A stretch of DNA of 57,569 nucleotides from the NCBI GenBank assembly GCA_017423025.1, contig JAFPGC010000066.1:1-57569 (forward strand), in the 5' to 3' direction. The DNA is from Bacteroidales bacterium (lineage in GTDB: Bacteria > Bacteroidota > Bacteroidia > Bacteroidales > UBA932). Positions 3 through 57,569 of this stretch are shown here, piece by piece. The translations under genes and the position numbers were made by a program. The notes beneath the pieces are model-generated. The model saw only the letters and a program-made list of their open reading frames with translations, searched no databases and was not told the DNA's origin. Within the stretch, counting starts at the first letter, position 1. The number at the start of each line of letters is the position of its first letter.

Positions 3-740
3 GACTGGCGGGAGGTGGAAAACCTCACGCGGGAAGCATTCTGGAACGTATACCGGCCCGGATGCCAGGAGCACTTTGTACTCAATCAATACCGCAGCAA
101 TCCGGCTTTCATCCCGGAGCTGGACCTGGTGATGGAGGAGGATGGCCGAATTATAGGCCACGTCATGTTCTCCAAGTCCGAAATTACCCTAACCGACGGA
201 ACTTCGTTCCCTTCCTGGACTTTCGGCCCCATCAGCATCCATCCGGATTACAAACGTAAGGGCTATGGCCTCAAACTTTTGCAATATGCGCTGGAGAAGG
301 CCCGGGCAATGGGTATCGGCCTGTTGCAGATGGAAGGCAATATTGAGTTTTATAAGCACGCCGGCTTTGGCCTGGCCAGCAAACTGAAGATCCATTATCA
401 CGGCGAACCGGCTGAAAGTGAGGTGCCGTACTTCCTGGCGCAAGAACTAATCCCAGGATACTGGGGTAACCACGAGGGCACATATTGCCCGCCTTCCGGC
501 TACTTCGTGGCCGATGCCCAGTCGGAGGCCTTTGAAGTCTACGAAGCAGGCTTCCCTCCCAAGGAGAAGCATCTGGCCCCCGGTCAACTTCCCCAGTTCT
601 GCCAGAGCTGCGGCATGCCGCTTACTAAGGATGAAGACTGCGGCCGCAATGCCGACGGCAGCATCAACTTCGACTACTGTCAGTACTGTTTTCAAGGCGG
701 CAGGATTCACGCACACTGCATGCCACAAAGAGGATTATAA
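3..740 (+). CDS. GNAT N-acetyltransferase with C-terminal zinc ribbon (5' partial)
   Basis: Likely an acetyl-CoA-dependent N-acetyltransferase; the substrate is unknown. The frame is open to the window edge and the first codons read DWREVENLTREAFWN, the usual start region of this family, so the true start lies outside and the GTG at 15 is internal. The GNAT fold covers about residues 1-170, with the acetyl-CoA-binding loop near HPDYKRKGYGLKLLQ. The C-terminus carries four paired cysteines (CQSCGMPL, then DYCQYC), matching the short zinc-ribbon domain found at the end of some Bacteroidales and Firmicutes proteins. The next gene, after a 30 bp gap, is convergent. The family call is firm; the substrate is not. 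Confidence 0.85.
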   Translation, partial: DWREVENLTREAFWNVYRPGCQEHFVLNQYRSNPAFIPELDLVMEEDGRIIGHVMFSKSEITLTDGTSFPSWTFGPISIHPDYKRKGYGLKLLQYALEKARAMGIGLLQMEGNIEFYKHAGFGLASKLKIHYHGEPAESEVPYFLAQELIPGYWGNHEGTYCPPSGYFVADAQSEAFEVYEAGFPPKEKHLAPGQLPQFCQSCGMPLTKDEDCGRNADGSINFDYCQYCFQGGRIHAHCMPQRGL

Positions 741-770
741 GACACACAGAAGACAATAGAGACTTATAAA

Positions 771-1916
771 TCATGGCCGGAAGTGTTGAATGCTATTCGC
801 AAGAAAACGGGACAAGAAGACATTATAGACTGAGTACCCGGTTCCGTTTTCAGTAGTTGTCGCCAATACCAGCTCCTTGTCTATCAGGGCCTTGATGTTT
901 CTTAACGCTGTTGGCCCGGAAGAGATCTTGTACTTGGAAAGGAAAGCGGCGGAGGTAATCTGCGAGACGCTATCTTCCATGGCAATGGCCGCCAACATCT
1001 TCCATTGGGAGCGGGTAACCAGCCGGCGAATTTCCTGAAAGCGATCTCTCTCAGAGTCCAGAATCGTTTGGATGGCCGTCACGATATCTTTCCGGCCAAT
1101 GGCTTCCCCGGATAAGGAAAAGACCTCATTACACAAGCGTTGCGTATAATAAGTATGATCTTTGGTCCATTCAATAATAAAGCCGATGGAATCATCGTCG
1201 ATGGTTTTCCCTGCCAATGCGAATTTCTCCTTGATGAAAGCCGAATAAACCTGTATAGGCAACTTTGAAAGATATAAAAAGGCAGTACTTTCGTAGAACG
1301 GTTTCTTGGCGTTGGTAAACATATCGGTCATCGTGTGTTTCTTGCTTCCGCAAAAAATGAAACGGACATTATGCAGGTGCTGGATATGCTTCCGCAGAAT
1401 CGCTTCCATATTTACATCTCCGTATTCCCGGATTTGCTGGAACTCGTCGATGGCCAGCACGACCATCTGCGGATAACTCTCAAGGTAACCCAAGACCTCT
1501 TTAAGGGTACTTTGCTTTTGGTTATCATCCGCAAAAGTAAACGACACTTGAGGAGAACCGGTCAGCGGGTCGATGCCAAGCAAAGGACGGACGCTCTTCA
1601 GTGTCTTGAAAAAAGCTGTAATCTTCTGCTGTTTTCCGAGTCTGCCGACGACTGCTTCGGAAATCACCTTGATGAACGCTTCGATGGAAAGGGTATCGCT
1701 AATGTCGCAATAGATGGTTTCATAGGGCAGTTTTCTTTCTTTCATCTCATCAAACACCCGAAAAATGAGGCCGGTTTTTCCCAGTCTTCGGGGAGAGATA
1801 AGCGTCGTATTCCGCCCATTTGTAATATTGCGGATGATTTCCTCCGTTTCTTTCTCTCTGTCGCAGAAATAGGCCTTGGATTTAAAAGGTTCCAAGATGA
1901 AGGGATTCTCAAGCAT
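771..1916 (-). CDS. AAA-family ATP-binding protein (archaeal-type ATPase fold)
   Basis: An ATPase of the PF01637-like group that is widespread and uncharacterised in Bacteroidales. The Walker A region is SPRRLGKTGLI (about residues 41-51) and Walker B is VVLAIDEFQQI (about 150-160). A winged-helix-like C-terminal part (about 290-381) ends the protein. The 381-residue length is typical of the family. It stands alone, has its own promoter upstream (1933-1963), and lacks the GGCCGAT heptamer that is common elsewhere in the window. Its base composition is visibly more AT-rich than its neighbours, which suggests acquisition. Role unknown; some relatives are linked to mobile or defence loci, but nothing here shows that. 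Confidence 0.8.
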   Translation of the reverse strand: MLENPFILEPFKSKAYFCDREKETEEIIRNITNGRNTTLISPRRLGKTGLIFRVFDEMKERKLPYETIYCDISDTLSIEAFIKVISEAVVGRLGKQQKITAFFKTLKSVRPLLGIDPLTGSPQVSFTFADDNQKQSTLKEVLGYLESYPQMVVLAIDEFQQIREYGDVNMEAILRKHIQHLHNVRFIFCGSKKHTMTDMFTNAKKPFYESTAFLYLSKLPIQVYSAFIKEKFALAGKTIDDDSIGFIIEWTKDHTYYTQRLCNEVFSLSGEAIGRKDIVTAIQTILDSERDRFQEIRRLVTRSQWKMLAAIAMEDSVSQITSAAFLSKYKISSGPTALRNIKALIDKELVLATTTENGTGYSVYNVFLSRFLANSIQHFRP

Positions 1917-1932
1917 GGCCGTATCTTTTTCG

Positions 1933-1963
1933 CAAAGATAATTAACAATATGTTAATAACAAA
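1933..1963 (-). promoter_or_regulatory. Bacteroidota-type promoter for the AAA ATPase
   Basis: On the minus strand, TTTG (1960-1963) is followed 19 bp later by TATCTTTG (1933-1940), an excellent match to the Bacteroidota -33/-7 consensus. The ATG at 1916 lies 16 bp beyond the -7 box. Confidence 0.75.
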
Positions 1964-2064
1964 ATGTTAATCTCATTTTTCGCAATAATCTATAAACCTC
2001 TGAATCTCCAACGCCCCTTCCAGAAACCGGAGGTTCGAGATTCGGAGTGTTTGGTCTACTACAG

Positions 2065-2093
2065 CCGGAAAGTCGAAAGATTTTCCGGTTTTT
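2065..2093 (+). terminator. Terminator-like hairpin with T tract
   Basis: CCGGAAA (2065-2071) pairs with TTTCCGG (2082-2088), followed by a run of Ts. No plus-strand gene ends just upstream, so it is either orphaned by a deletion or not functional. Confidence 0.45.
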
Positions 2094-2515
2094 TCTTGCT
2101 CTGGGTTATTTACAGGCAGTTAAGATTGCTCGGTTAACCTCAAATACCTGGTTCGAGGAATTTTTTTCAAGACGCGATATTTCGATGTTCAACATCCGAC
2201 ACAATCTTTCCATATGCGAACGGTATTTCCATATGCCTTCTCTATTTTCGCACAACTAATAAAATTATATGATATAAACAACTATCATATCAAAGAGTCT
2301 TCCATCTCGTCTACCCTGATACAAATTGAAAACGACTCGGTTGGCTCCGGACTTTTTGCCGGTTTCATCCGATCCTCCTTGGAGAAATGGCATATTGTGG
2401 TTATCTTTACCAGAAACATCGAAAATTGTACGACTCGTTTAAACTGTTGTTATCATAAACCCAAAAATTGATAGGGCAATACACTTTTTAAGCAAAAGAA
2501 AAGGACGAATTAAAT

Positions 2516-3253
2516 ATGACCAACATCACAAAATCTATTTGCCTAGGGTTCTGCCTGTTTGCAGTTGCTTGCGGAAACCCGTCACAGAAAGCGTCTGACG
2601 CTGATTTTACCGACAGTGTTACCGAGGCACTCGCTAACGGCGGACAAATCGACCTTGACCAGATGCAGTGGACCCGCGAGCCTGCTGCCTGTGAAATCAA
2701 GGGCGATGTCATCTCCATTACTACGGCCCCTCATACGGACCTTTGGCAGCGTACATACTACCATTTTAGGAACGATAACGCCCCCGTGCTGCAGATGCAG
2801 ACCAAAGAGAAATTCTTCAGCTTTGTTGTGAAGACGGACTTCACCCAAAGCCACCAGCGTTTCGACCAGTGCGGCATAGTGATGTACCTGGACAGTGACA
2901 ACTGGCTCAAGGGTTCAGTTGAATTCGAGAATGAGGAGTTCCAGCACCTGGGCAGTGTGGCTACCAACAACGGCTATTCTGACTGGGCCACTACAGCTAT
3001 ATCGGCCGATGTCAAGACCATGTGGTACCGCTTCTCCCGTCGGGAGGATGATTTCTGCATCGAATGCTCTGCCGACGGGATAAATTTCAGCCAGATGCGT
3101 GTCTGCCATATGTATGCGGCCACGGACGCCATCTGTTTTGGCATCTATGCCTGCTCTCCGGAGGAGTCCTCTTTCACGGCTGTGTTCACGGATATGAAGA
3201 TTACCGAGTGCGCCTGGAAGGCCCATGACGGCCAGCAGCCGGATGAGAAGTAA
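2516..3253 (+). CDS. DUF1349-like concanavalin-fold lipoprotein
   Basis: Probably a surface or periplasmic lipoprotein with a beta-sandwich of the DUF1349 type, which is common in carbohydrate-related contexts; no catalytic activity is established. The N-terminus MTNITKSICLGFCLFAVAC ends in a lipobox with Cys19. The body has the family-typical run PHTDLWQRTYYHF, then FSFVVKTDF, CGIVMYLDSDNWLKGSVEF and WYRFSRREDDFCIECSADG. The length of 245 residues fits one domain plus signal. It lies 8 bp before an MFS transporter, so the two are probably co-transcribed and may act on the same ligand. The family call rests on pattern memory only. Confidence 0.7.
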   Translation: MTNITKSICLGFCLFAVACGNPSQKASDADFTDSVTEALANGGQIDLDQMQWTREPAACEIKGDVISITTAPHTDLWQRTYYHFRNDNAPVLQMQTKEKFFSFVVKTDFTQSHQRFDQCGIVMYLDSDNWLKGSVEFENEEFQHLGSVATNNGYSDWATTAISADVKTMWYRFSRREDDFCIECSADGINFSQMRVCHMYAATDAICFGIYACSPEESSFTAVFTDMKITECAWKAHDGQQPDEK

Positions 3254-3261
3254 AAGATAAA

Positions 3262-7539: not shown

Positions 7540-7572
7540 GAATCGGCCTTGTTAAAAATTTTTAAAATATTC

Positions 7573-7604: not shown

Positions 7605-7632
7605 CGGCCGATTTTTTGACAAGACTGAAAGT

Positions 7633-18093: not shown

Positions 18094-19608
18094 ATGGACA
18101 AAAGAATAGCACTGAACCCCAACGAGGTGGTGGCTTTCCTGGAAAAAGCCCCGGAAACCTTCACCCGTGAAGACATGCTCTCCTTCATCGAAGAGAAGGG
18201 CATCCGCATGATCGATTTCATGTACCCCGCCGAAGACGGCCGCGTCAAGACCCTCAACTTTACCGTAAACAGCCTGGCCTACGCAGAGACCATCCTCACC
18301 GAAGGCGAAAGGGTGGACGGCTCCAGCCTCTTCCCCTCCTTCATCGAGGCCGGCAACTCGGACCTTTATGTAATTCCGCGCTACCGGACGGCTTTCGTGG
18401 ACCCGTTCAACCAGATTCCCACCCTCTGCTTCCTCTGCGGCTTCTACGACAAGAGCGGCAAAGCTTTCGACTGCGCCCCGCACGCCACGCTCATGAGGGC
18501 CGAAAAGGCCTTCGAGGCCTCTACCGGCCTGCAGTTCGAGGCCATGGGAGAACTGGAGTACTACGTCATCTGCGAGGAAGACGACCTCTTCCCCGCCACG
18601 GACCAGAAAGGTTACCACGAGAGCGAACCCTTCGCCAAACTGAACGACTTCCGCCGCGAATGCATGGACCATGTAGCCAAGACGGGCGGCCAAATCAAAT
18701 ACGGGCACTCCGAGGTGGGCAACTTCACCCTGGACGGCAAAATCTACGAGCAGAACGAGATAGAGTTCCTCCCCTGCCCCCTGGACACCGCGGCAGACCA
18801 GCTCCTGCTGGCCAAATGGGTCATCCGCAACCTGGCTTACCGCAACGGCCTGGACGTCTCTTTCGCACCCAAAATCACCACGGGGAAGGCCGGCAGCGGC
18901 ATGCACATCCATATGCGCCTGATGCGTGACGGCCGCAACGCCACCCTGGGGGCCGATGGAAAGCTCTCCGAGGAAGCCCGCGCCGCCATAGCCGGGCTCA
19001 TGACCCTGGCACCGTCCATCACGGCCTTCGGCAACAAGAACCCTACCTCCTACTTCCGCCTGGTGCCGCACCAGGAAGCCCCCACCAATGTCTGCTGGGG
19101 AGACTGCAACCGCAGCGCCCTGGTGAGAGTCCCGCTGGGCTGGAGCTCGGGAACCGACATGTGCAGCGCCGCCAATCCGTTGGAAAAGCAGACCGATCAC
19201 GACACCACCGCCAAACAGACCTTCGAAATGCGCAGCCCCGACTGCTCGGCCGATATCTACCAGCTCATGGCCGGCCTGTGCGTAGCCGCCCGCAAGGGTC
19301 TGGAGATGCCCCGCGCCGAAGCCCTGAGGCTGGCACAGGAAACTTATGTTGATATGGATATCCACAAAAGTGAAAATGCCGCAAAGCTTTCCACTCTGCG
19401 CCAACTGCCCACCTGCTGCATGGAAAGTGCCGACTGTCTGGAGAAAGACCGGGCCGTCTATGAGGAGGCCGATGTGTTCCGTCCCCGCATGATTGACGGT
19501 ATTTTGAAGGCGCTGAGGGCCCACAACGACGCCAATCTGCACACCGAAGCCAGGGGCGACACTAAACTAATGAGGCGCCTTGTAACGCAGTATTTTTACT
19601 GCGGATAG
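18094..19608 (+). CDS. glnA: Glutamine synthetase family protein
   Basis: Catalyses ATP-dependent formation of glutamine from glutamate and ammonia. The 504-residue protein has the beta-grasp N-domain (MIDFMYPAEDGRVKTLNF) and the catalytic barrel: ATP-binding and metal residues in GKAGSGMHIHMRLM, and NRSALVRVPLGWSSG in the active-site flap region. The KPPS-like ATP motif of enteric GSI is replaced by FGNKNPTSYFRLVPHQEAP, typical of the Bacteroidales branch. This is not the about 730-residue GSIII. No separate promoter fits between the tRNA terminator hairpin and the ATG, so transcription probably reads through from tRNA-Gly. Confidence 0.9.
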   Translation: MDKRIALNPNEVVAFLEKAPETFTREDMLSFIEEKGIRMIDFMYPAEDGRVKTLNFTVNSLAYAETILTEGERVDGSSLFPSFIEAGNSDLYVIPRYRTAFVDPFNQIPTLCFLCGFYDKSGKAFDCAPHATLMRAEKAFEASTGLQFEAMGELEYYVICEEDDLFPATDQKGYHESEPFAKLNDFRRECMDHVAKTGGQIKYGHSEVGNFTLDGKIYEQNEIEFLPCPLDTAADQLLLAKWVIRNLAYRNGLDVSFAPKITTGKAGSGMHIHMRLMRDGRNATLGADGKLSEEARAAIAGLMTLAPSITAFGNKNPTSYFRLVPHQEAPTNVCWGDCNRSALVRVPLGWSSGTDMCSAANPLEKQTDHDTTAKQTFEMRSPDCSADIYQLMAGLCVAARKGLEMPRAEALRLAQETYVDMDIHKSENAAKLSTLRQLPTCCMESADCLEKDRAVYEEADVFRPRMIDGILKALRAHNDANLHTEARGDTKLMRRLVTQYFYCG

Positions 19609-33430: not shown

Positions 33431-34229
33431 TGCGAAGACCCAGCATGCCCGGCTTGTTCCAGGCATAGGGCGGGCGCAGGATGTGCTGGCATAGGCGGGC
33501 TATGCGCGTCCATCGGGCAAAGTCCCGGGCCCTGAGCCCCGTCACCAGCCGGATGGTGCGGGAGCGCTTTCGCATGTGCCTCTCCCAGCCCTGTTCCAGA
33601 CGGGACTTGTCCTGGAAACGCGCCTCAATGCGGCCCATGTCAAAGTAGCCAAAATGCAGCAGGTATAAATCCTTGACAATGTGAAAATTGCGCCCTTTCA
33701 CCCGGTGGAAGCCGCTTCCCCATTGCAGGGGTTTCGACAGGATGGAAGCCTTGGTGTAACGGGTGCCCAGCTGGGCATAATGCCGCTGCTGCAGGAAAGG
33801 AAGGGTTTCATCAATGGGGCCTTCCTCCCCCAGCTTCTGACCGAAGTCCAGGCCCAAGCCCGAAGCGCAGCCCTTAACCGGAATGCCGTCCAGGAAAGCA
33901 GCCAGGCCCTTTCCCAGTGCCGGATCGGCCACCAGGAATTCGTCACAGTCCGTGCCGATGACGAGGTCATACCCCTGGGCAAAAAGGTCGGCGGCCTTGG
34001 CGCTCATCACCGCCACGCGGCCCTTGTCGTTGGACACCACGTCGGTGCCTATCTTGGGCAGTTTCTCTGAATGGGTTCCTTCACAGAAGGCAGGAATCTC
34101 CTGATCCAGGCCATCGAAATAGATATACAGATACTCCTTCCCGCCCAGTTCACGGCCGTAGTACTCCACCCACTTGCGCAGGTAGAAGTCGTCGTTGCGG
34201 ACCATGGTGAGGACGGCTATCTTTTTCAT
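33390..34229 (-). CDS. Glycosyltransferase of the Glyco_tranf_2_4 type
   Basis: A GT-A-like enzyme of 279 residues. It begins MKKIAVLTMVRNDDFYLRKW, the family start, and has VIGTDCDEFLVAD as the DxD-like metal site. RVKGRNFHIVKDLYLLHFGY is the conserved late region. The start overlaps the end of uvrA by four bases, so it is translated downstream of the NusG-uvrA transcript. The last 25 residues (NKPGMLGLRI) are encoded across a sequence resembling the palindromic repeat. Confidence 0.82.
   Translation of the reverse strand: MKKIAVLTMVRNDDFYLRKWVEYYGRELGGKEYLYIYFDGLDQEIPAFCEGTHSEKLPKIGTDVVSNDKGRVAVMSAKAADLFAQGYDLVIGTDCDEFLVADPALGKGLAAFLDGIPVKGCASGLGLDFGQKLGEEGPIDETLPFLQQRHYAQLGTRYTKASILSKPLQWGSGFHRVKGRNFHIVKDLYLLHFGYFDMGRIEARFQDKSRLEQGWERHMRKRSRTIRLVTGLRARDFARWTRIARLCQHILRPPYAWNKPGMLGLRIIVRIPDRFRDIV
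33444..33466. repeat. Possible diverged palindromic-repeat copy in a glycosyltransferase
   Basis: CATGCCCGGCTTG followed by TTCCAGGCAT keeps the outer arms (ATGCC and GGCAT) and the CCCGGCTTG core of the repeat but has lost the inner symmetry. It encodes KPGM, as the pcrA copies do. Confidence 0.35.
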
Positions 34230-37102
34230 AGGTATTGGGCAGTAAAGGTCTTCCCCTGCTTCTTCAGATCTTCGGGCGTTCCGGCAAACACCACTTCCCC
34301 GCCCCGGTCACCGGCATCGGGGCCCAGGTCTATTACCCAGTCCGCGCTGCGGATTACATCTACGTTATGCTCCACCACAATGACGGTATGGCCTTTGCCG
34401 ATGAGCACGTCAAACGCTTTCAGGAGCTTCTCCACATCGTAGAAATGGAGGCCCGTGGTGGGCTCGTCAAAGATAAAGAGGATGCGCTCGCGCCCGCCGG
34501 CCGCCAGGGACAGGAAGTAAGCCAGCTTGATACGCTGGCTCTCGCCGCCGGAAAGCGTGCTGGACGGCTGGCCCAGCTTGATATAGCCCAGGCCCACGTC
34601 CACCAGCGGCTGCAGCTTGGTGGCAATGTTGCGCGCCGCATCTTCCTTCTGAGCACCGAAGAAGGCAATGGCCTGCTCTACGCTCAGGTTCAGGATGTCG
34701 TCTACATTGAGTCCCTGGTAGCGGACTTCCAGGATATCGGGTTTGAAGCGCTTTCCGCCGCAGCTTTCGCACACCATGGTCACATCGGCCATGAACTGCA
34801 TGCCTATCTTCACGAAGCCGTCGCCCTGGCACTCCGGGCATCGGCCTCCCTCCTGGTTGAAGGAGAAGAAGGACGGCGTATACCCGTTGATGCGGGCGTA
34901 TTGCTGGTCCGAGAGGAGTTTGCGGATGTCGTCGTATACTTTGAGGTAAGTGACCGCGTTGGAACGGGAGCTTTTGCCGATGGGATTCTGGTCCACGTAT
35001 TCCACGCGGGTAATGCGGCTCAGGTCTCCCGAGAGGCCCTTGAAGGTGCCGGGGAGGTCGCCCGTCTCGTTGATGCGCCGGTGCAGCGCCGGATACAGGA
35101 TGTCCCCCACCAGCGAGCTCTTGCCGCTGCCGGACACGCCGGAAACCACGGTGAACACATTCAGCGGGAACTGGACGTCAATGTCCTTGAGGTTGTTCTG
35201 CATGGCCCCCTGCACGGTAATGCTGTACCGCCAGGGATTCTTCTCCCGAACATAGGGCTTCCGGATACCGGCCAGGTATTGCAGGGTCAGAGATGGCCGA
35301 TCGGAGTCGGCCATGACGGAAGCCTTCGCGTCATGCCCGGCCTGACCGGGCATCTCGGGGGCACCCATATAGACTATCTCTCCCCCATTGATTCCCGCCT
35401 TGGGGCCCAGGTCTATGAGGCAATCTGCCGCACGGATAATCTCCGGATCATGCTCTACCACCACCACCGTGTTACCGATATCCCGCAAGCGCTTGAGGAC
35501 GGCAATGAGCCGCTCCGTATCGCGGGGATGCAGACCGATGGAAGGTTCATCCAGGATGTACATGGAGCCCACCAGCGAACTGCCCAGCGCCGTCACCAGA
35601 TTCACCCGCTGGCTCTCACCGCCGGACAGCGTATTCATGGTCCGGCTCAATGTCAGATATCCCAGTCCCACGTCCTGGATGCATTGCAGGCGGTACTGGA
35701 TTTCCTCCATCGCCTTCCCGGCCACCTCCAGATCCCTGTCTGCGAAGGGCGTCTCCTGGAACCATTTCAGGAGCTCCTCCACCGTCATGCTCAGCAGGTC
35801 GTGGATGGTCTTTCCGGCCACCTTCACGTACAGGGCCTCCTTGCGCAGGCGGCTGCCTCCGCAGGCATGGCAGGTGGTGCGGCCGCTGTAGCGGCTCAGC
35901 ATGTATTTGTACTGAATCTTATATCGGTTACTCTCTACCCACTCGAAGAACTGGTCCAGGCCGCAGTAGGCATCGGGGTCTTCATAGTCTCCCCGATAGG
36001 TCCAGATAATGTGTTTCTGCTCTTCGGTAAGTTTGGCATAAGGCTCGAAGATGGGAATTCCCAGCCGCTCGGCATTCTTGATGAGCTGGTCCTTGAACCA
36101 ACTCATCTTCTCTCCCCTCCAGCAGGCAATGGCCCCGTCGTAAATGCTCTTGGTCTTGTCCGGCACCACCAGGTCCTCGCTGATCCCCACAATCTTTCCC
36201 AGACCCCCGCAAACCGGGCAGGCCCCCAGCGGGCTGTTGAAACTGAACAGATACTCATCCGGCTGCCGGAAAACAATCCCGTCCCTCTCAAACCTGGAGC
36301 AGAAGCGAACTATGCCGTTGGAGGGGGTGGAGGTTCCCGAATCCGTAGCCACCCTCGGCTCCGACGGCTTTTCCCACAGCGCCATGTCGCCCTCTCCCTT
36401 GTCGAAAGCCGACTGGATGGAAGAGTTCAGACGGGTGCGCAGGTCGTCGTCCAGGGTTCCGGACGTCTTCACGCGGTCCACAAGAAGCAGGAGGCCGGCG
36501 GGGTACTTCCCGTCCAGCTTCATCACGTCTTCTATCTGGAGAATACTGCCGTCGTCCGGCTGGAACAGGCGGCCGAAGCCCTCCTCCTTGAGGGCCAGCA
36601 TCAGTTCCACCTTGTCTTCCCGGGCATCCCACTTGATATCGGCCAGGATATACAGGGCGTGCGCCTTACCGTCGTTAATATACTCCAGGACATCCTTGAC
36701 CGTGTGGGCCTTCACCTCTTCTCCGCTTACGGGGGAATAAGTGCGGCCGATGCGGGCAAACAGCAGGCGCAGGTAGTCGTAAATCTCTGTGGTAGTCGCC
36801 ACCGTGGAGCGGGGGTTCTTGATATTGACCTTCTGCTCGATGGCAATGGCCGGCGGAATGCCGTCGATGGCCTCCACGTCGGGTTTTGCCATTCGGCCCA
36901 GGAACTGGCGGGCATAGGAGGAAAGGCTCTCGGCAAAGCGGCGCTGCCCCTCGGCAAACAAAGTATCGAAAGCCAGGGAACTCTTGCCGCTGCCGGAAAC
37001 GCCCGTCACCACCACCAGGCGGTTACGGGGAATCTCCACCGTAATGTCCTTGAGGTTGTTGACCCGGGCATGCCGGATGACTATGTTTCCTTCGGCCGGC
37101 AT
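34226..37102 (-). CDS. uvrA: Excinuclease ABC subunit A
   Basis: The damage-recognition ATPase of nucleotide excision repair. Two ABC cassettes are visible: Walker A GVSGSGKSSLAFDTLFAEG (about residue 35) and GVSGSGKSSLVGDILYPAL, signatures TLSGGESQRV and TLSGGESQRIKLA, and Walker B ILDEPSIGLH and IFDEPTTGLH. Zinc-finger pairs are CPVCGGLG/CHACGG and CPECQGDGF/CESCGG. 958 residues, slightly long: a segment of about 13 residues (EMPGQAGHDAKASVMADSD) between GGEIVYMGAP and LTLQYLAG is encoded by a palindromic repeat. The start overlaps the NusG-like stop by one base (TAATG). Confidence 0.96.
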   Translation of the reverse strand: MPAEGNIVIRHARVNNLKDITVEIPRNRLVVVTGVSGSGKSSLAFDTLFAEGQRRFAESLSSYARQFLGRMAKPDVEAIDGIPPAIAIEQKVNIKNPRSTVATTTEIYDYLRLLFARIGRTYSPVSGEEVKAHTVKDVLEYINDGKAHALYILADIKWDAREDKVELMLALKEEGFGRLFQPDDGSILQIEDVMKLDGKYPAGLLLLVDRVKTSGTLDDDLRTRLNSSIQSAFDKGEGDMALWEKPSEPRVATDSGTSTPSNGIVRFCSRFERDGIVFRQPDEYLFSFNSPLGACPVCGGLGKIVGISEDLVVPDKTKSIYDGAIACWRGEKMSWFKDQLIKNAERLGIPIFEPYAKLTEEQKHIIWTYRGDYEDPDAYCGLDQFFEWVESNRYKIQYKYMLSRYSGRTTCHACGGSRLRKEALYVKVAGKTIHDLLSMTVEELLKWFQETPFADRDLEVAGKAMEEIQYRLQCIQDVGLGYLTLSRTMNTLSGGESQRVNLVTALGSSLVGSMYILDEPSIGLHPRDTERLIAVLKRLRDIGNTVVVVEHDPEIIRAADCLIDLGPKAGINGGEIVYMGAPEMPGQAGHDAKASVMADSDRPSLTLQYLAGIRKPYVREKNPWRYSITVQGAMQNNLKDIDVQFPLNVFTVVSGVSGSGKSSLVGDILYPALHRRINETGDLPGTFKGLSGDLSRITRVEYVDQNPIGKSSRSNAVTYLKVYDDIRKLLSDQQYARINGYTPSFFSFNQEGGRCPECQGDGFVKIGMQFMADVTMVCESCGGKRFKPDILEVRYQGLNVDDILNLSVEQAIAFFGAQKEDAARNIATKLQPLVDVGLGYIKLGQPSSTLSGGESQRIKLAYFLSLAAGGRERILFIFDEPTTGLHFYDVEKLLKAFDVLIGKGHTVIVVEHNVDVIRSADWVIDLGPDAGDRGGEVVFAGTPEDLKKQGKTFTAQYL
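35293..35314. repeat. Inverted repeat containing two heptamers, inside uvrA
   Basis: ATGGCCGA (35293-35300) and TCGGCCAT (35307-35314) are perfect inverted arms around TCGGAG. It lies directly beside the palindromic element in the same inserted segment and includes one GGCCGAT heptamer. Confidence 0.6.
35331..35355. repeat. Palindromic repeat inserted in frame in uvrA
   Basis: ATGCCCGG-CCTGA-CCGGGCAT (35333-35353), flanked by GTC and CTC as in the other copies. It encodes PGQAGHD on the uvrA strand, in a loop where UvrA proteins normally have about 14 residues and this one has about 27. Confidence 0.8.
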
Positions 37103-39353: not shown

Positions 39354-42300
39354 TCAAGGTTTTCCGTAGCCGGTCAGGACCACCGGGCCCAGCAGGCCGG
39401 AAGGCTGGAGCTTATCCCCCGCCTCGTAAAAGCGGCGGATACGGGTCACCGGCTCCACGTTCTTCTGCCGGTCCCCTATCATCCGGTTCACCCACAGATT
39501 GGTCACGTAGACTTCCAGTTTGTTGTCGCCCTTCTTCAGATAAGGAAGGATATCGGCCGATACGAAAGGTGCTCGCCACAGGACGCCGGCCGGGTGCCCG
39601 TTGATCACCAGTTCCGCCATAACATTCACCTCTCCCAGGTCTATCCGGGCCTGGTCAAGCCCCTTCAAACTGTCCATGGTAAAATGGGTGGTGTAATGTG
39701 CCGTGCCGGAGAAATATTTCACCACAGGGTCGCTGTTGGTGGTCCAGTCGTTCAGCACGGAGAAAGTCTCCAGCGCCCGCTCTCCCCCTTTCTGCACAAA
39801 TTCCACATCCCAGTAGCGCTCCAGCTTTTGGGCCGATACCACCGCCCCGGTCTTTCGGGGGGCCGATACGCCCAGCGGGGCATTGGAAAGCACATAGAAC
39901 AGGGCATCGCCGGGAGCCAGGGAGAAAGGCACGGCCGTATAGCCGTCGCCCGCCCCGGAGCATTCCAGGGCCGATGTCTCCCCCGTCTCGGGGTTGAAGA
40001 GGGCGGCGAAACGGGCTTCTGCGCGGAAGCGCACGGTGCCGCATTGCTTCTGCCCGGTAAAGTTGCCCAGCCAGTAAATATCGGCCTTGCCGGGCACTTC
40101 GCGATGGACGAACTGGATGCCCACGAGGGAAGCCTCGTGCCCCCGCTTGTTGACGGGAATGGCCGAGGTGGGGTCGCCGAACATCCGCACCGGGACGCTT
40201 CCTTCGGGGAAGACGACATCGGCCTTCATATCCTGCGGGAAGGCGTCCTTTTCGTCCACCACGCGCACTCCGGCAGCGCGGAACGCTTCAATCCTGTTTT
40301 TAAGGTCTTCCGAGACCACTTTGGCGCTGCGGCCTAGCATGAGCATGCTGTACTTCTGGCCGCTGTCAGTGACCAGGCAGCCGTCCTTCACGCGCACCCG
40401 GTTGAGCAGTACATCCGGGTTGGCGTAATCGAAGTTGAAGCCCGTGGGAATGTCCGGCAGGAAGCGGAAGGACTCTCCCCCATAGACGGCCGTGGCATTG
40501 GTGTCTTCGCCGTAGAAGAGGAGGATGTCGGCCACGTTCCGGCCCATCTGCATCATCTGGCTGCTGCGCGCCAGATAGTCTGTCCAGACCTTGGCATAGG
40601 AAGCCCAGGTCTCGTTGCGGTGGAACCACTGGCCGTATTTGAAGAGCCCCAGGCCGGGCAGGAAGTCGTCCGAGGGCTGCGAGGCCGAGTCGTGGATGAT
40701 GAAGCGGTTGAGGCCGCTGGCCAAGGCCATATCGGCCACCGGCTTGATATTGCCGGGATGGTAGGTGTAGGCCCTCTTGTCGTCACCCGAGACGGTGAAG
40801 GACTCTGCAGCTGCGATGTTCTGTCCGTAGATATGGGCCACGGAGGCGCTTTCGCGGATGTCCGTGATGGAGGCCGGGAGCATGGAACCGGAGGGGCTGT
40901 CCGTCATCCAGATGGCGGCCATGGGCACCGAGGCGGCCCGTTTGGCATCCATTCCGTCGCCCACGAAGGCGCGGCCGGACTCGTGGGACTCGATGTAGGT
41001 TCCCTTCATTCCGTATTCCTTGACGAACTCGCCAATGCGGGCATAGTTCTCCGTAAACAGTTCTCCCAGGGTCTTGCGCCAGTCAAAGAGGAACTTTTCA
41101 CTGGTGGCGGCGTCGCCTATGATCTCACCGGCCAGCACCGGCATCCAGGGGATGAGGTCGTAGCCGCGGCGCTTCAGGAATTCTTGCGGCAGGGAGGGCG
41201 TCCAGGTTTCGGATTTGGCCTCGAAACTGTCTACCAGGATATGGGTAACGCCCCTGGGGCCCAGCATGCCACCCGCCGCGCCCCTGTACATGTCCAGATA
41301 GGTATGGAAATAGCGGCTCCAGGCCTCTTTGTTCAGTTTATCTACCTCCAGGCCGGTGGCATTGGGAGATGCAGGGTGGTTCATCTTGCCGGTGAGCGAA
41401 GCCCCGAAGCGGTAAATCCTCCACTTCCCTTCCGGCAGGCGGCAGGCAAGCCTTCCTTCCGGGGACATGCGTCCCGTTAGGATGACAATGTCATCGGCCT
41501 TTATGCATTTTTCGTTCTGGATCTGCTCTGTGGGGAAACGGTTGAAATCGTAGGGGAAGCAGTAGCCGGCCTTTTCCTCGAACATCTCTATCTTGCGCAC
41601 GCCGTTGAGTTGGAGGTCCTTGATGGCGCTTCCCGTGACGCGGAAATACTTCGCCTTGGTGGCCGGGATGTTCATGGTCACATAATCGAACGGGGACTTC
41701 CTAACGCGGCAGACGGTTTTCCAGGTTTTTCCGTCCTGGCTGCACTGCAATTCGGAATCCGTGTAAATCTCCCCTTCCCGGGGGCGGAAGCCGCTCTGGG
41801 TCCGCTTCACGGTGAAGGACTGAATGGTGCGGGCGCGCGGGAAACTGACGGTGAAGGCTGTTGCGTCCTTGGTTAGTTCCGCCCCCATTTCCTCCATGCT
41901 CAGGTCTCCTTCCGGCAGTTTGACGGCCACAACGGCCACATCGTAGCCAAAGTCTTCCACCTTGACATGCTCCACATCGGCCGGCAAATCCTTATACTGG
42001 CCCGTTATCTTGGTGAGCGGCGGGAGTACCACGTCAATGTCCCCGCCCTGTACGTCCAGCGTCTGCCATTCCAGCTTTTTCATGGCATCTTCCGGCTTTA
42101 CCCAGGGCCCTCCCGTGCTGCTCCAGCCCGGGGCGCTGGCCACCGTCACTTCCATTCCCAGGGAATCGGCCAAGGCTATGGCGTAACGGTACGCCTCCTT
42201 CCAACTATCGGACAGATAAGGCCTTTTAAAGGCCGCCGCCTTGGGCATGTTCACCCCGCCGGCATCGAACTGATGGAAGCCTGCCACCCCCACGCCGTCC

Positions 42301-42597: not shown

Positions 42598-44277
42598 ATG
42601 AAACGTATTTACTACACATTATTTGCGATTCTGGCCATCCTGACGGCGGGCTGTGCAAAGCCCGACCGCACGGAGGAGGTCAACAAACTGAAGCTCCGGA
42701 TCCAGGACAAAATGTTCTCGGACCCAACCCCCGACGAGGCCATTGCGCTGGTAGACAGTGCCGAGCTGGCCGGCGTATTTTCGTCCACAACGGCCAACCT
42801 GATCCGCACCAATGTTTATGGTCAAATGGGCCATACGCGGCTGTCCATTTTCTACGGTGAGCAAATCAAGCCCAGTCCCGAGCTCCGGAGCGAAGGCATC
42901 AACTATTATTCGGCCATGCTCCATCTTATGTCTCTGCTGAACAATAGCGGCGAATGGGGGAAGGCCCTCCATCTGGCCGATGAGATGATTGCCGACGTGG
43001 ACCAGGGAGGCATGGACGAGCAGATAGCCATGCGGATCAAGAGCCGCGCACTCACCGTCAAAGGCGATTGTGAGAAGGGAATGGGGCATATGGAAGAAGC
43101 CGAACGCTATTATCTGGAAGGCCTCAACATAATGATGGACGGCGTCGTACACCCCCGTAGTTACTGGGTGTTGGATGCCCTGTTCGTGGCCGTAACGGAG
43201 ACCACAGAATTCTATCTGGAGTGGGAAAAGCCCCTAAAGGCCCTGCCCCTCATAGCAGCGGGCGATACAACCTTGGCCCGTTTAGTGCGGTGTCCCGACA
43301 TGCCGGAGGCCATCCTAAATTTACGCAGCAACAACATCACCATCAACCAGGCCCTCAACTATGCCTCCAATGGCATATTCGACAAGGCCGAAGCCCTTTA
43401 CCAGAAGCATCGGCAGGCCCCCAGCCTGTCGCCCTATGACCTGGTAGCCGAGGCCCGCTATCTGACCATCGTCGGTCGCTATGACGAGGCCATCCGCCTG
43501 TTCCGCCAGACCGACTCCCTCTACCTGGCCCGGGGCAGCGCCATCGACAACTCCTACATCAATAACTACATGATGAGCCAGTACAAGGCCCTGAAAAAGG
43601 CCGGACGTACGGACGAAGCCATGGCATACGCCGACCGCATGCGCCACCTGAGCGACTCCATCCACCTGGTGGAGCGGAAGATGGATATGGAGCAGCAGGA
43701 GGTCATCCGTCAGAAGGAGGCCGAAATTACCAGCCGCCGCCATTCGCTGGCCATCCACCGCATCATCCTCCTTTCGGCCATCATTATTATCCTGCTCATT
43801 GGCTACCTTCTGGTACGCGCCCGCATCTACAACAAGGCGCTGGAGGAGAAAAACCGCAGCCTCTATCAGGAGATCCAACAGAGGGAAAAGGCCGAAAACG
43901 AAGAACGCCTGGCCCTGCAGGCTCAGCCCGAAGAAACTCTCTCGCAGAATCAGCAGCTCTACCGACGGCTCTGCAAGCTGATGCAGGACCCCGAGGTCTT
44001 CACCAATCCCGAGACCAACCAGGATACGCTGGCCAGCCTGGCAGGCACCAACCGCACTTACGTCTACGATGCCCTGCGCGAATGCGCCGGGAAGACGCCC
44101 GTCGACTTCATCAACGGATACCGTCTTCGCTATGCAGCCAATCTGCTGGCCACATCCAAAGACTCAGTATCCCTTATTGCCGAACTCTGCGGCCTCTCCC
44201 GCCGCACCTTCTACCGTCTCTTTGAGGACGCTTATTCCATGTCGCCATCAGACTACCGGAAAGTGGCAAAAAAGTAG
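42598..44277 (+). CDS. Lipoprotein-type TPR sensor fused to an AraC-family DNA-binding domain
   Basis: A 559-residue one-protein regulator. The N-terminus MKRIYYTLFAILAILTAGC reads as a lipobox or export signal; residues about 25-380 are helical repeats (TPR-like, e.g. FDKAEALYQKHRQAPSLSPY); a transmembrane helix IILLSAIIIILLIGYLLV lies near 387-404; a coiled coil follows; and residues about 455-559 are an AraC HTH with LIAELCGLSRRTFYRLF. So an outside sensor would signal to an inside DNA-binding domain. It faces the peptide-fimbrillin-GLUG operon and is divergent from GH106; either could be its target. A collapsed relative occurs at 56866. Confidence 0.85.
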   Translation: MKRIYYTLFAILAILTAGCAKPDRTEEVNKLKLRIQDKMFSDPTPDEAIALVDSAELAGVFSSTTANLIRTNVYGQMGHTRLSIFYGEQIKPSPELRSEGINYYSAMLHLMSLLNNSGEWGKALHLADEMIADVDQGGMDEQIAMRIKSRALTVKGDCEKGMGHMEEAERYYLEGLNIMMDGVVHPRSYWVLDALFVAVTETTEFYLEWEKPLKALPLIAAGDTTLARLVRCPDMPEAILNLRSNNITINQALNYASNGIFDKAEALYQKHRQAPSLSPYDLVAEARYLTIVGRYDEAIRLFRQTDSLYLARGSAIDNSYINNYMMSQYKALKKAGRTDEAMAYADRMRHLSDSIHLVERKMDMEQQEVIRQKEAEITSRRHSLAIHRIILLSAIIIILLIGYLLVRARIYNKALEEKNRSLYQEIQQREKAENEERLALQAQPEETLSQNQQLYRRLCKLMQDPEVFTNPETNQDTLASLAGTNRTYVYDALRECAGKTPVDFINGYRLRYAANLLATSKDSVSLIAELCGLSRRTFYRLFEDAYSMSPSDYRKVAKK

Positions 44278-44312
44278 AAATGGCAGGATGGACTCACTGA
44301 CCCCATTTCATC

Positions 44313-47300
44313 TTATTTTACCTTGATGTACGCCCTGAAGGCCTTGATGTTACCATTGGCGTCCGGGTAGGACAGCGAGCCATCGCCGGCGATGAAGAGC
44401 ACGCTCTCGTCGCTTCCTGCCAGGCTGGTGTCGATGGTGGTGCCGTTATCGGGTATAATGCCGAACACCGGCACGAAGTTGGCTGCCGTGCCAACCGTTG
44501 TGACAGTTTCTTTATTAATGGTAACAGAGCCAAAGTTGGGATTCACCACATTCGATGAATTGCCTATCATAATCAGGTAAGGATGGCCGGCAGTAATCGA
44601 GGTGACGGTGGAGAAATTCAGTATCAGTATGCCCGATTCGCCGTTGAAGGTGGCAGTATTGAGTGCCTTGACAACCGTCCCTTCTCCGAACACAGCAGTA
44701 ATCTGTCCCGCAGTCAAACTGAATGGCGCACAGAAACTGTTCCAGACACCCGCAAGCATCGTGCGGTTCATCGTGACGACACTGGAGGTCGTATGCGCTC
44801 CCGTCAGGACCTCCGTATTGTCGCGGTCCTCATAGAGGGTGATGGTGCCGAAATTGGCCTGGATGGTTACATCGGCGTTGTGGAAGGTAAGGGTGTAAGG
44901 GCTCCCGTCGCCGGAGAGGCGAGCACTATCTTCACCGTCCTTGCCAATGAAGGCCGAATAGGAATCGCTGGTGATATTAAGCTGAATCGAACCTCCTCCC
45001 GAGCCATAGATCACACCCTCATGCACGAAGCAGCGGCTGTCGTACAGGGTGATTCCGGCCACATCATAAACGGTCGAAGTACCATAGGGTTCGATATTCA
45101 CATGATCAGAGCCCACTCTGACGGCACAGGCGTGCAGGGTACCGGCGTCGAATCCGTGTTTGGGATCTATTCCATCCTGGCTGTAGGCTACATGGTTATA
45201 GTATGCACGGGATATCGTGACATAAGATCTGGAGACATCACCGCTGACCAGCAAATAATTAGATGCCGGAGTGCTTCCCGCTTTCGCATGGAAAGTCGCA
45301 GGCGCAAAGACACAGTCGGTCAGGTTCACCCGGGTACTAGGTCCGCTTCTTGCCCATCCTACCATGCCGCCACCCTCGTAAGCTCCGTTCGTATACTCGA
45401 CGGTTCCGGTAAACACACAAGCCGTCAGGCTGATGCTAGCATTGGACTCGACTGTCCCTACAAAAGCGCCGCCATCCACATCCCCATTGCGTGATGAAGA
45501 AATGGCCACACTGCTCCGGCAATTCAAAATGGTATTGGTACTATTATACCGTACAAAGCCCACCAGGCCGGAGGGCCGCATACCGGTGGTGCTCACGCTG
45601 CCGGTGAGTACCAGGTTGCTCAGGTGTGCATCCCGGATGTAGCCAAAGGGGGCCGTATAGTCAGCATTCGTAGTCGTGAGATCCAGGTTCAGCGTATGTC
45701 CATCTCCGTCAAAATGATGGTTGAAGGGCTTTTCTTCTAGGGCTCCCGCCGGAGTAGTGACGGTAATGTCCGCCGTCAGTTTGAAATAGCATCCGGCAGG
45801 GAAGGGTGATTCGCCCGTATTTTTGGTCTCCATCATGGCCCAGTCTGCTGCGGAGGTAATCAGGTAAGGGTCTGCCTGGGTGCCTTTCCCGGCAAAATCC
45901 GACATCTCAGTATGCTTGAGAACCGCCTTGCCGCCGACTTCCTCCCAATTGGCTCCCAGCTGGCTGACCAGCGCGGCGGCGGTCATCCCGGAAGCATCGC
46001 TTCCCTGATTGCCGGCCCCCCAGGAGGTAATGTAATAGGTTTGGTTGAAAATGGGATTGGCTCCGCTGTCATAACGGACTATCTTTTGGGAACCACTGGT
46101 CCCTATCGTCACCGTTTCCGGGTTAAACAGGCAGTTGGTAAAAGTGACCGGGGTGTACGCCCAACCTATCAGACCGCCACAGTGGGTGGTAGTGACATTG
46201 TCATTGGGGTTTTTGGTACTCTTCCCCTGATGGAATTTGCCGTCAAACAGCACATCGGTGAGTGTAATGGAGGTAGCCGTATTCGCGACGCGGGAGATAA
46301 GGCCGCCGTGGGTGCCGTCTCCGTTAATACGGGTGTCTATCTTGACGCTGCTCCAACATTGGTTCAGGGAAAGGAATCCGTTTGCCAGGCCTACCAGGCC
46401 GGACGCATCCATGCGGTTTGTGTAGACGGTGCCTTCGATGCGGATATCCCTAATGCTCGCATCTTTTACATAGCGGAACGGGGCGCAGTAATCGGCCGCA
46501 CTGGTGCGGGTAAAGGTAAGGGTGCGTCCCTTGCCGTCGAAGTGGCCGGAGAAAGGGTGGGAAACATCGCTGCCCAGCTGGAGGTTCACCGCCAGGTCGG
46601 ACAACAACTGGAAGTACTTCCCGCTGAAGGATTCTCCGTTCTGGATCCGGAATGCCAGCGCATTCCAATGATCCACGGAAGCAATCAGATAAGGACTCTC
46701 CTGCGTGCCGGCACCCACCAAATCGGCGTAGATATTAAAGAAATTCGGGACGACCGTGTTACCTTCCCTATGCCATCCGCCACCCAGGCCTCGAAGGAGA
46801 TCAGTATCCGACATGGTCCTCGCATCAATGGCCCCGTGGTCGGTCTGGGGCGTATCGCCCCAAATCATCTTATAGTAGCAATTGGCCAATATGGCCGAAG
46901 CGCTGGTTTTTTTGCGGAAGAAAGTGTTGCTGCTATCGTCACCTTTCAGCTCCGTTGGCGCAAAAAGGCTGTTCAGAATATACAGGTGTGAATCGGAAGC
47001 GGCCCAACCTACAAAGCCGCCGCTTTCATCGGGGTCGTCTGAAATAATGCCGTCGAACAGGCAATTGATGATCTCTGTCGTTCCGTCGTCTTGAACACGG
47101 CCCACGAAGCCACCGATATTTTTGACATCATGAGCATCGAGTCGTAAACTGCTACGGCAATTGATAATCCGGTTATATCCTTTGGCCCGGCCAATCACTC
47201 CGCCCGAAGTGCTAACATCCTTTGCATCTATTTCCCCTTTGACATGAAGATTCATGATGGTGGCATCCTCCGCATAGCGGAAAGGTGCTACATAGTCGTT

Positions 47301-56003: not shown

Positions 56004-56053
56004 CCACTTTTTCTTTTTCTGGTACTGCGGGGCTGAGGGATTAGAAGAAAAGT

Positions 56054-56085
56054 ATTGATTATCTTGCCTTTTGTTGATACATTTG
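56054..56085 (+). promoter_or_regulatory. Promoter for the PHP-like lipoprotein
   Basis: ATTG (56054-56057), 20 bp, TACATTTG (56078-56085). It places the start at ATG 56113, where a lipoprotein signal begins. Confidence 0.6.
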
Positions 56086-56112
56086 TACCATCCACTGTTA
56101 TCCTGCCCGCTT

Positions 56113-56685: not shown

Positions 56686-56762
56686 GGCCGAAACTCAAAC
56701 CAGCATCATAACGGCCACAAGGATAGTTATTTTCATAGTTAATTGTTTTAGCAACTGCGAAG

Positions 56763-56797
56763 TGTGCATTTATGCACAGATTTGGGCCGAGACCAAA
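56763..56797. promoter_or_regulatory. Two adjacent inverted repeats in the right-hand intergenic region
   Basis: TGTGCAT-TT-ATGCACA (56763-56778) and TTTGG-n7-CCAAA (56781-56797) are both perfect. They lie 70-100 bp before the broken regulator and its promoter, suitable for a regulator site. The rest of 56686-56837 shows nothing else. Confidence 0.45.
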
Positions 56798-56837
56798 TGC
56801 GTGCATAGGTTTTTTAAATATATTTGCATACATATTT

Positions 56838-56845
56838 TATATTTG
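56838..56845 (+). promoter_or_regulatory. -7 box before the broken regulator and peptide operon
   Basis: TATATTTG, 20 bp before ATG 56866, in a strongly AT-rich stretch. A second TATATTTG lies at 56819-56826. Either could drive the downstream peptide and lipoprotein genes. Confidence 0.5.
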
Positions 56846-56865
56846 TATAAATATAATCGAACTTT

Positions 56866-57010
56866 ATGCTTAACAAGATTCTCCTATTCTTTTGTGGAAT
56901 CCTTACTGTGATAGGTTGCGGCCGGTCCTTAAAGGCCCCGGCACGCCTTCCGGGAGCAGTTTAAAAAGGAGTATGGGATGACCCCCACAGAATATCGTCA
57001 GAATATATAA
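56866..57010 (+). pseudogene. Collapsed lipoprotein-AraC regulator (internal deletion)
   Basis: The first 18 codons encode a lipoprotein signal (MLNKILLFFCGILTVIGC); that frame ends at TAA 56962-56964. In the frame one base later, the sequence reads FREQFKKEYGMTPTEYRQ and stops at 57010, which is the last helix of an AraC HTH domain. The intact regulator at 42598 also begins with a lipoprotein signal and ends FYRLFEDAYSMSPSDYRK. So this is such a regulator with everything between signal and HTH tail lost, plus a frame change. Confidence 0.75.
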
Positions 57011-57022
57011 AACAACAAGAAT

Positions 57023-57169
57023 ATGAACACTAGAATGAAAGAAAACTACGTCGCACCGGAGACCATTTCCGTCGAATTGGTTTCTGAGAGTTTTATCTGC
57101 GACAGCGAAATCACCGGAATTGACAGCGAACGGATAGACTATGGTAACCCTCAGGACCTTACTTGGTAG
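57023..57169 (+). CDS. Short peptide with Y-x-A-P-E pattern, second copy
   Basis: A 48-residue product from ATG 57023 (ATG 57035 is an alternative start). It reads MKENYVAPETISVELVSESF, then ICDSEITGIDSERIDYG and an end QDLTW. Aligned with the peptide at 49431 it shares Y, A, P, E, L and S at the same spacing without gaps, while the C-terminal halves differ. No signal peptide. Its end overlaps the following lipoprotein gene by 29 bp in another frame, so translation is probably coupled. Function unknown. Confidence 0.65.
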   Translation: MNTRMKENYVAPETISVELVSESFICDSEITGIDSERIDYGNPQDLTW

Positions 57170-57569
57170 TCTGCTGGCGTGCGGACTCCTCCTCTCCTGC
57201 GCAAAGGAGACGGAGCAGCCTATGCTGCCCGTTCAGGAAGACGGAACGTATACCCTTACCGTTAATGCGGGAAAGGGCGAACGGCCGGATACCAAGGCAC
57301 TGATATTTGTCGGGACCAAGTTAAAAGCCTTATGGTCCCAAGGTGAGGAGGTGTCGGTATACAAGGCCGATGCCCTTTTGGGTACGCTTACAGCCCAAAA
57401 TGACGGGAGCAGCACCACGCTCAAGGGAGAGATTTCCGGAAATCTTGCGAAGGACGATGAGCTCACCCTCAAGTTCCTGAGCCCGGATTACGCCAGCCAG
57501 GACGGCTCCATTGAATATATCTCCGCCCACTGTGACTACGCTGTGGCAAACGTCACGGTGACAGACGTG
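57141..57569 (+). CDS. Fimbrillin-like lipoprotein (3' partial)
   Basis: An open frame of 143 codons running off the window. The signal MVTLRTLLGSLLACGLLLSC ends in a lipobox. The mature part resembles the fimbrillin-like lipoprotein at 47624: here LWSQGEEVSVYKADALLGTL, there SRWTAGDVVSVYSGENLLGT, and both continue TAQ-STTL and later CDY-A-V. It is the second example of a peptide gene directly followed by a fimbrillin-like gene. Confidence 0.75.
   Translation, partial: MVTLRTLLGSLLACGLLLSCAKETEQPMLPVQEDGTYTLTVNAGKGERPDTKALIFVGTKLKALWSQGEEVSVYKADALLGTLTAQNDGSSTTLKGEISGNLAKDDELTLKFLSPDYASQDGSIEYISAHCDYAVANVTVTDV

Follow-up and report, generated by a model that had tools for sequence, protein, structure and literature searches.

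Uptake words are established in the Pasteurellaceae and Neisseriaceae, where pilins read them or are thought to read them. They are called DNA uptake sequences (DUS) in Neisseriaceae and uptake signal sequences (USS) in Pasteurellaceae, and spacers tend to be rich in them. Chi is strand-polar. In the available parts of PMC3630211, the DUS dialects have a common core and intergenic regions are permissive for uptake words, and excerpts of PMC2346458 report a gene-end bias of the words of Pasteurellaceae. Here we describe a short word, ATCGGCC (complement GGCCGAT), that is iterated in a contig of a Bacteroidales bacterium (GCA_017423025.1, contig JAFPGC010000066.1). The whole contig of 57,569 bases is called the window below. 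In the accessible part of the open-access literature, six forms of this word led to a single, unrelated paper, and among papers on uptake or iterated words in Bacteroidetes or Bacteroidales we recognised none that reports it.

The word resembles DUS and USS, as the available parts of PMC3630211 and PMC2346458 describe them. It is non-palindromic and occurs in thousands of copies that make up about 1% of the genome. It has no genome-wide orientation bias, is randomly spaced and has species variants round a fixed core. In the rich genomes, it is lowered in stretches around relaxases, without dropping to zero. Unlike DUS and USS, it is shorter (7–8 bp) and denser, it occurs in Bacteroidales, and no pilus ATPase was found. 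The highly iterated palindromes (HIPs) of cyanobacteria, HIP1 and its alternates, share with the word a high iteration, a density of the order of 1 per kb, and loss or replacement by variants among relatives (PMC4390886, in excerpt). However, HIPs are palindromes with matching methyltransferases (the same excerpt). The word lacks palindromic symmetry, and none of the tested methylase families is found in all 18 genomes rich in it. Like Chi, the word is a short over-represented recognition word, but it is not strand-polar.

The available sections of PMC8459023 and PMC7965970 on Riemerella show that Bacteroidota are transformable with machinery unlike the known kinds. Transformation there involves ComEC, DprA and ComF together with proteins unlike known transformation machinery (PMC8459023). 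Riemerella belongs to another class (Flavobacteria). In R. columbina, own DNA outcompetes foreign DNA (PMC7965970). The frequent Riemerella words in Table 3 of PMC7965970 are A/T-rich runs, scored against base composition and not tested as uptake words.

Results

Abundance of the Word and Codon Choice

By exact count, the window carries the word 101 times, 58 on the plus strand and 43 on the minus strand. The initial annotation of this DNA, made by eye, had given about 57 ATCGGCC and 42 GGCCGAT on the plus strand, which was nearly exact. In 100 dinucleotide shuffles of the window the mean was 13.2 copies and the maximum 24, and none of the shuffles reached 101. The window is contig C71 of a draft genome (G000) of 2,388,874 bases in 88 contigs, which is 87% complete. 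This genome contains 1980 + 2086 = 4066 copies of the word, or 1.7 per kb, and 318 copies of the reversed word. The excess is present genome-wide, one of the two points on which the initial annotation had seen its claim as open to refutation.

Tests on G000 used 457,569 of its bases, namely the window and 20 stretches of 20 kb, in which a simple caller placed 374 genes covering 93% of the sample. The word tops all 7-mers of this sample by order-2 score (814 copies vs 134 expected). Maximal-order Markov scores mask the word, because its excess sits in its own sub-words; they were discarded, and order-2, shuffle and codon nulls were used instead. The second point open to refutation was a codon-shuffled null. 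Shuffling of synonymous codons within genes (40 rounds) gave 160 expected genic copies, and 786 were observed (z 49). Codons do not explain the word. Its z is the highest of all heptamers, and the best word not sharing its letters reaches about z 11. The spacers of the sample contain 24 copies, when 3.9 (dinucleotide) or 5.0 (order 2) were expected. The fold enrichment is similar in spacers and genes.

Frames that require rare codons are the most inflated over the codon-shuffled null, with 181 vs 6.9 for xxA TCG GCC and 31 vs 2.7 for GGC CGA T; the frame GG CCG AT is barely inflated (6 vs 4.2). Serine before GCC and after xxA is encoded by TCG in 181 of 214 cases (85%), and elsewhere in 784 of 7874 (10%). 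Aspartate after xxG GCC is GAT in 395/496 cases, and 2215/7446 elsewhere. Arginine between GGC and T is CGA in 31/70 cases (159/6464 elsewhere), and CGG is used for arginine in 18/23 cases in the word context (1023/6511 elsewhere). These counts bear out the proposal that genes accept here codons they otherwise avoid, such as Ser TCG and Asp GAT. The alternative GGCCGAC, said to be seen only a handful of times, indeed occurs 10 times in the window over both strands, 4 of these as GGCCGAC on the plus strand. In six pooled genomes poor in the word there is no such preference in the word context (TCG 6/24, GAT 13/37, CGA 0/35; no case of CGG). Isoleucine ATC before GGC C is mildly favoured in poor genomes too (odds ratio 2.5 vs 3.8 in G000). 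Of the dipeptides that the word encodes, Ala-Asp alone is elevated in each of the two rich genomes tested (1.21 and 1.24, vs 0.96–1.05 in four poor ones); Ser-Ala is raised in G019 (1.32) and not in G000 (1.01). The amino-acid sequence is hardly affected by the word, and synonymous choice at its sites is nearly saturated. It is practically certain that the word is real, is set at the DNA level and is not explained by codons.

Form of the Word in Different Genomes

The initial annotation saw no fixed flanks. This holds in part only, since 77% of the copies in the sample have a pyrimidine directly in front (C 53%, T 24%). Around the octamer CATCGGCC, whose excess in G000 is 397, position 1 falls from C (397) to T (183) and A (96). 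At position 2, A (397) is followed by T (129), and at position 8, C (397) by A (108). Any change at positions 3–7 leaves an excess of at most 25. The pattern is thus approximately YATCGGC followed by C and less often by A, with a strict TCG-C core; an initial T and a final A are also accepted in the core (WTCGGCM).

In the rich sets, ATCGGCC reaches 3.2–7.6 times the codon-shuffled null (2.5 in G098+G087). TTCGGCC is at about 2 times the null in many sets, ATCGGCA rises up to 4.3 times in G081+G276, and GTCGGCC and CTCGGCC stay at or below 1.6 times. G081+G276 prefer ATCGGCA (70 vs 16 expected) to ATCGGCC (52 vs 16). In the small sample of L034, TTCGGCC (18 vs 3.4) is about as strong as ATCGGCC (7 vs 1.2). 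The TCG-C core is common to several lineages and the flank preference is graded; the differences between sets are modest.

The palindrome as a unit was rejected. In the 457 kb sample, the full palindrome ATCGGCCGAT gives a count of 32 when both strands are read (16 places), and overlapping 9-mers predict 32.7; the whole of G000 has it at 67 places. A supposed dialect CATCGAC in G255, G172 and G061 was rejected as well, since it reaches just 1.7–1.8 times the codon null, as in Prevotella. Some word-poor DNA shows other repeated words. ATATTCAT-type words occur 12 times vs 1 in the 13.7 kb of L048, possibly a different iterated word, and 14 times vs 2.2 in the 20 kb of L161 (G285). In 60 kb of the poor genome G030 (L172, L123, L124), CATTGAC (35) and CATTGCC (40) exceed the expected 9–10 or so; this may reflect a repeat-rich protein or another word.

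Distribution among Relatives

We tabulated 300 genomes of the same genus, drawn from a larger group; genomes were graded as rich or poor by copy number of the word, and the rich ones were counted by eye. The distribution is patchy. More than 1000 copies are present in 51 of the 300 genomes, G000 included, which has the most copies but not the highest density. Sampled poor genomes lie at the codon null (54 copies vs 50.2 in 19 pooled genomes, and 1.1, 0.9, 0.7 and 1.2 times in four more). The pool of five named poor relatives has 12 copies vs 15.6. Pooled loci of Prevotella, Bacteroides, Parabacteroides, Muribaculaceae, Alistipes and Bacteroidaceae are at 0.6 to 2.0 times the codon null.

Named relatives were found through glutamine synthetase; they are chiefly Bacteroidales metagenome-assembled genomes, many of ruminant-gut origin. 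The genus may be Cryptobacteroides of GTDB. In the tree of this single gene, which may be transferred, the poor loci L030, L032, L033, L035 and L038 lie among rich relatives, which suggests that the word was lost in some lineages. UvrA was searched in 61 genomes, 6 of which (G003, G088, G148, G225, G244, G247) were left off its tree. In this tree, made by a quick method without bootstrap from genomes of our choice, one clade holds 27 of the 32 rich rows. The rich G097, G098+G087, G100 and G133 stand among poor genomes, with G097, G100 and G133 on long branches.

Two further genomes belong to the same order. In 40 kb of G053 (another family, GC 0.40; L230, L231), ATCGGCC occurs 13 times vs 3.0 in codon shuffles, and the palindrome TCGGCCGA is the top 8-mer; this is possibly a related word in another family. 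In G056, ATCGGCC is strand-skewed (224 vs 383 genome-wide), and the copies listed on contig C1 are mostly on one strand.

Conservation of Word Sites

The sample of G000 was aligned (blastn) to 29 rich loci, and to poor loci from a list of 45, some of which do not align; 11 UvrA-region loci of genomes counted rich (L141–L143, L145, L146, L152–L157) were left out. Of 337 word sites aligned with rich loci, 152 are the same in the relative, when same-phase heptamers predict 87. In poor loci 9 of 115 are identical, and 13.9 were expected. A cleaner test compares the same codon for the same amino acid inside and outside the word. In rich relatives, GAT is kept in 112/173 cases in the word and 339/837 elsewhere, GGC in 46/50 and 1823/2636, ATC in 47/50 and 1912/2488, GCC (in G GCC GAT) in 148/162 and 2322/2964, and TCG in 17/28 and 103/263. 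The p values of these comparisons are too small, because one site of G000 counts in several relatives; in the 5 closest rich loci alone, only GAT and TCG keep p <0.05. In poor relatives the word codons are not significantly better kept, and GAT is kept even less (23/62 vs 123/234), as is one GCC set. Judged by these alignments, the word is held in place in related rich species.

Arrangement and Mobile DNA

Distances between neighbouring copies fit an exponential (793 gaps, mean 542, Kolmogorov–Smirnov p 0.58); very short distances are distorted because copies overlap. Counts in 2-kb bins are Poisson (variance/mean 1.02). Regular spacing and clustering were rejected as features of the word. The longest word-free run of the window (42974–46490; 3.5 kb, GC 0.56) is compatible with random spacing. 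Word density climbs with local GC, from 1.4 per 2 kb below 50% GC to 4.7 above 60%. Converging (5 copies in 6.1 kb), diverging (8 in 8.0 kb) and tandem spacers (10 in 17.2 kb) do not clearly differ. Adjacent non-overlapping copies in the sample are more often opposite (434) than in the same orientation (343; p 0.0012), most strongly at 7–50 bp (35 opposite vs 15 same). A similar tendency in four other rich sets is not significant (66/57, 33/28, 156/132, 82/78). This excess of opposite neighbours is mild.

A portal-family match was found in 1 of 21 rich genomes (G312:C80, perhaps a binned phage). Its first 20 kb carry terminase, portal, protease and capsid genes, and contain 5 copies of the word vs 3.7 expected; the average of G312 is 15 per 10 kb. 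Phage relatives in IMG/VR, whatever their hosts, have 88 copies vs 86.7 expected in 424.9 kb, a total that omits L234 (5 vs 1.1 alone) and L242, which overlaps L236. Ten stretches of 3–20 kb around relaxases have 2.9 to 13 copies per 10 kb, each below the average of its own genome, with word-free runs of up to 8 kb in mostly lower-GC DNA. Thus, the word seems to belong chiefly to resident DNA, which would gain it slowly or by transmission.

Candidate Machinery

Protein families were searched in 18 rich and 20 poor genomes, with matches counted over the cut-off; the rich drafts are 87–99% complete, and absence from such drafts is no proof. The ATPase family T2SSE of pili and type II secretion is over the cut-off in 3 of the 38 genomes (G016, G065 and G124), all word-poor. 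Methylases are over the cut-off in rich and poor genomes, respectively, as follows: C5 in 9/18 and 9/20, N6_N4 in 4/18 and 10/20, Eco57I in 11/18 and 14/20, and D12 in 5/18 and 10/20. These four families were rejected as the common partner of the word, since none is common to 18/18 rich genomes. GATC is under-represented in the sample and in the window, at 0.52 of the maximal-order expectation in G000, 0.30–0.65 in ten other rich genomes and 0.40–0.86 in four poor ones. Twelve of the 25 heptamers most depleted against the codon null contain GATC, though G000 lacks all four tested methylase families.

The ComEC domain is present in 40 of 41 genomes of the genus and order, including 25/25 within the genus, 4 of them rich (G000, G003, G005, G019). 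In other families, ComEC is about 700 aa long in 9 of the 15 genomes with a match. The homologue of the genus is shortened, at most to about 400 aa, in rich and poor species alike.

The window features are collected in Table 1. As the initial annotation had claimed, the full palindrome occurs exactly twice and copies also lie outside called genes. The glutamine synthetase and uvrA-type genes served as tools and are no part of the word system.

Table 1. Positions of the word and of the marker genes in the window
Feature	Position	Strand	Remark
101 copies of the word (span)	315..57371	58 +, 43 -	first at 315, last at 57365-57371
Two overlapping opposite copies, ATCGGCCGAT	3001..3010	both	exact match
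Second ATCGGCCGAT	39552..39561	both	exact match
Copy outside called genes	7542..7548	+	match vs gene calls
Copy outside called genes	7606..7612	-	match vs gene calls
Glutamine synthetase gene	18094..19608	+	used for finding named relatives
uvrA-type gene	34226..37102	-	phylogenetic marker for rich and poor species

Discussion

The word is dense, strand-neutral and tunable between species, and it is kept at a synonymous cost. Words of this kind arise in Neisseriaceae and Pasteurellaceae when uptake drives their accumulation. With the precedent of Riemerella, these are the reasons why we prefer to its rivals the reading that ATCGGCC is a pilus-independent self-DNA recognition word, working like DUS and USS and read by putative machinery. 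We give this reading a probability of about 0.4. It supposes a sequence-specific activity that reads double-stranded DNA and would make word-bearing DNA likelier to be inherited; the rich species would share this activity, and in the rest it would have been lost or be weak. Most likely it would be a bias in how DNA is taken up or processed during natural transformation. Word-bearing fragments would be preferentially taken in and recombined, as with the DUS and USS of Neisseriaceae and Pasteurellaceae, and words would accumulate in resident DNA until synonymous sites were nearly saturated. Since the searches gave no pilus ATPase, the reader would not be a type IV minor pilin. Among the four interpretations offered by the initial annotation, an uptake sequence is the best fit to a word that is non-palindromic, without strand bias, randomly spaced and patchy among species, with a graded fixed core and one phage without excess. 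However, spacers are not over-filled, and a pilus ATPase is over the cut-off in none of the 18 rich genomes. We do not class the word as a DUS, because the tests for a pilus and for spacer enrichment were negative.

A number of results weigh against this reading. T2SSE is over the cut-off in 0 of the 18 rich genomes, in a search that did not include pilins. The ComEC of G000 (L009:15434–16516, G000:C55) is just 360 aa long, ComEC is also present in poor species, and no gene found so far tracks the word. Unlike DUS and USS, the word is not concentrated in spacers or gene ends. Per kb it is less frequent in spacers (0.71) than in genes (1.86), and neither orientation prefers a gene half (165/177, 205/210). 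There is no surplus of word-free 2-kb bins (7 of 228 are empty vs 6.5 expected), and counts per gene are even (chi2/df 1.08 over 305 genes). The codon CGA is not better kept in the word in rich relatives (5/22 vs 29/98). The 8 nearest phage relatives counted carry 32 copies vs 16.6 expected. The relaxase stretches are lowered and not at zero, and low GC may account for part of this. Finally, some genomes that are rich by count exceed the codon null by little (1.9 times in G255 and 2.2 times in G172, vs 3.0 times in G061), with more than 1600 copies in each of the three.

A less likely alternative takes the word for a self-marker or for an architectural site, with no role in uptake. A DNA-binding protein would read it inside the cell, in nucleoid organisation, break repair or the action of a word-sparing defence nuclease. 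Dense, randomly placed copies (about 1 per 540–590 bp) without strand bias agree with this, as do the lack of preference for gene ends or spacers, the phage contig at background and the missing pilus ATPase. However, such a reader is hypothetical, the regular spacing that an architectural role might require is not seen, and, in our judgement, the near-saturated synonymous preference and the gain and loss species by species resemble a transmission bias more.

It is rather improbable that biased mutation or mismatch repair (Vsr-like or other) converts near-words to the word without any selection on it. The similar fold enrichment in genes and spacers and the Poisson uniformity are what a process dependent only on context would give, and slow action would leave phages unenriched. 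Moreover, single-step differences among rich species are mostly transitions (43/68 and 29/47), many of them G/A changes at the first position. Against this, 24 of the 32 single-step changes that separate the word from poor relatives are transversions, with sites repeated among relatives. These differences are of many kinds, so no single mismatch type feeds the word. The C5 methylase is absent over the cut-off in 9 of the 18 rich genomes, so a 5-methylcytosine/Vsr system is not needed. The excess is also specific to a pattern of 7–8 bp.

Still less probable is a HIP1-like word made or used through a cognate DNA methyltransferase. Its density is of the same order as that of HIP1, and the patchy loss with variants among relatives is as in cyanobacteria (PMC4390886, in excerpt). 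However, the word is not palindromic and none of the four methylase families is common to the 18 rich genomes. In G000 and G241, C5, N6_N4, Eco57I and D12 all lack a match over the cut-off, in a search that did not include PF02384 (type I HsdM) and others. The HIP1-like interpretation of the initial annotation is disfavoured on these grounds, and its idea of a methylation site finds no support in the four families, within the same limits. Taken together, the methylase and T2SSE counts leave the word without an explanation in a type IV pilus or in one shared methylase of the tested families.

The word is also short, GC-rich, non-palindromic and very frequent, as would suit Chi, FtsK-orienting polar sequences (KOPS) or another strand-polar replication signal, but the near-equal numbers on the two strands of the genome already contradict this. 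The segregation or recombination signal suggested by the initial annotation likewise finds no support. We found no significant strand imbalance in any of 10 contigs, of which 20–100 kb were sampled (69/67, 79/100, 35/41, 33/38, 36/39, 17/16, 29/31, 23/21, 18/21, 58/43; p 0.13 to 1.0). Contig parity is the better test of polarity, because GC skew tracks the coding strand in the sample. Such a signal is very improbable. The least credible explanation is a codon or codon-pair preference in translation: most copies are genic, Ala-Asp is mildly frequent in two rich genomes and ATC before GGC C is somewhat favoured in poor ones also, but spacers are enriched to a similar fold, most frames and both strands are involved, with the rare codons TCG, CGA and CGG, and poor congeners at the codon null already contradict it.

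A pilus-independent recognition word leads to a wider picture, which is possible and which we offer tentatively. A large genus of gut Bacteroidales may have its own self-DNA code, with a strict TCG-C core and tunable flanks. A putative pilus-independent protein reader would decide on the uptake or retention of DNA. Across hundreds of sister species, this system would repeatedly have been shut down or weakened. If this is true, so dense a word in Bacteroidales, in genomes with no pilus ATPase, would imply either a novel receptor for DNA uptake or some novel cause of word accumulation, and it would account for their unusual codon choices. With its hundreds of rich and poor species, the genus is a natural experiment for locating the reader by comparison. 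The word could also guide genetic tools for uncultured rumen bacteria.

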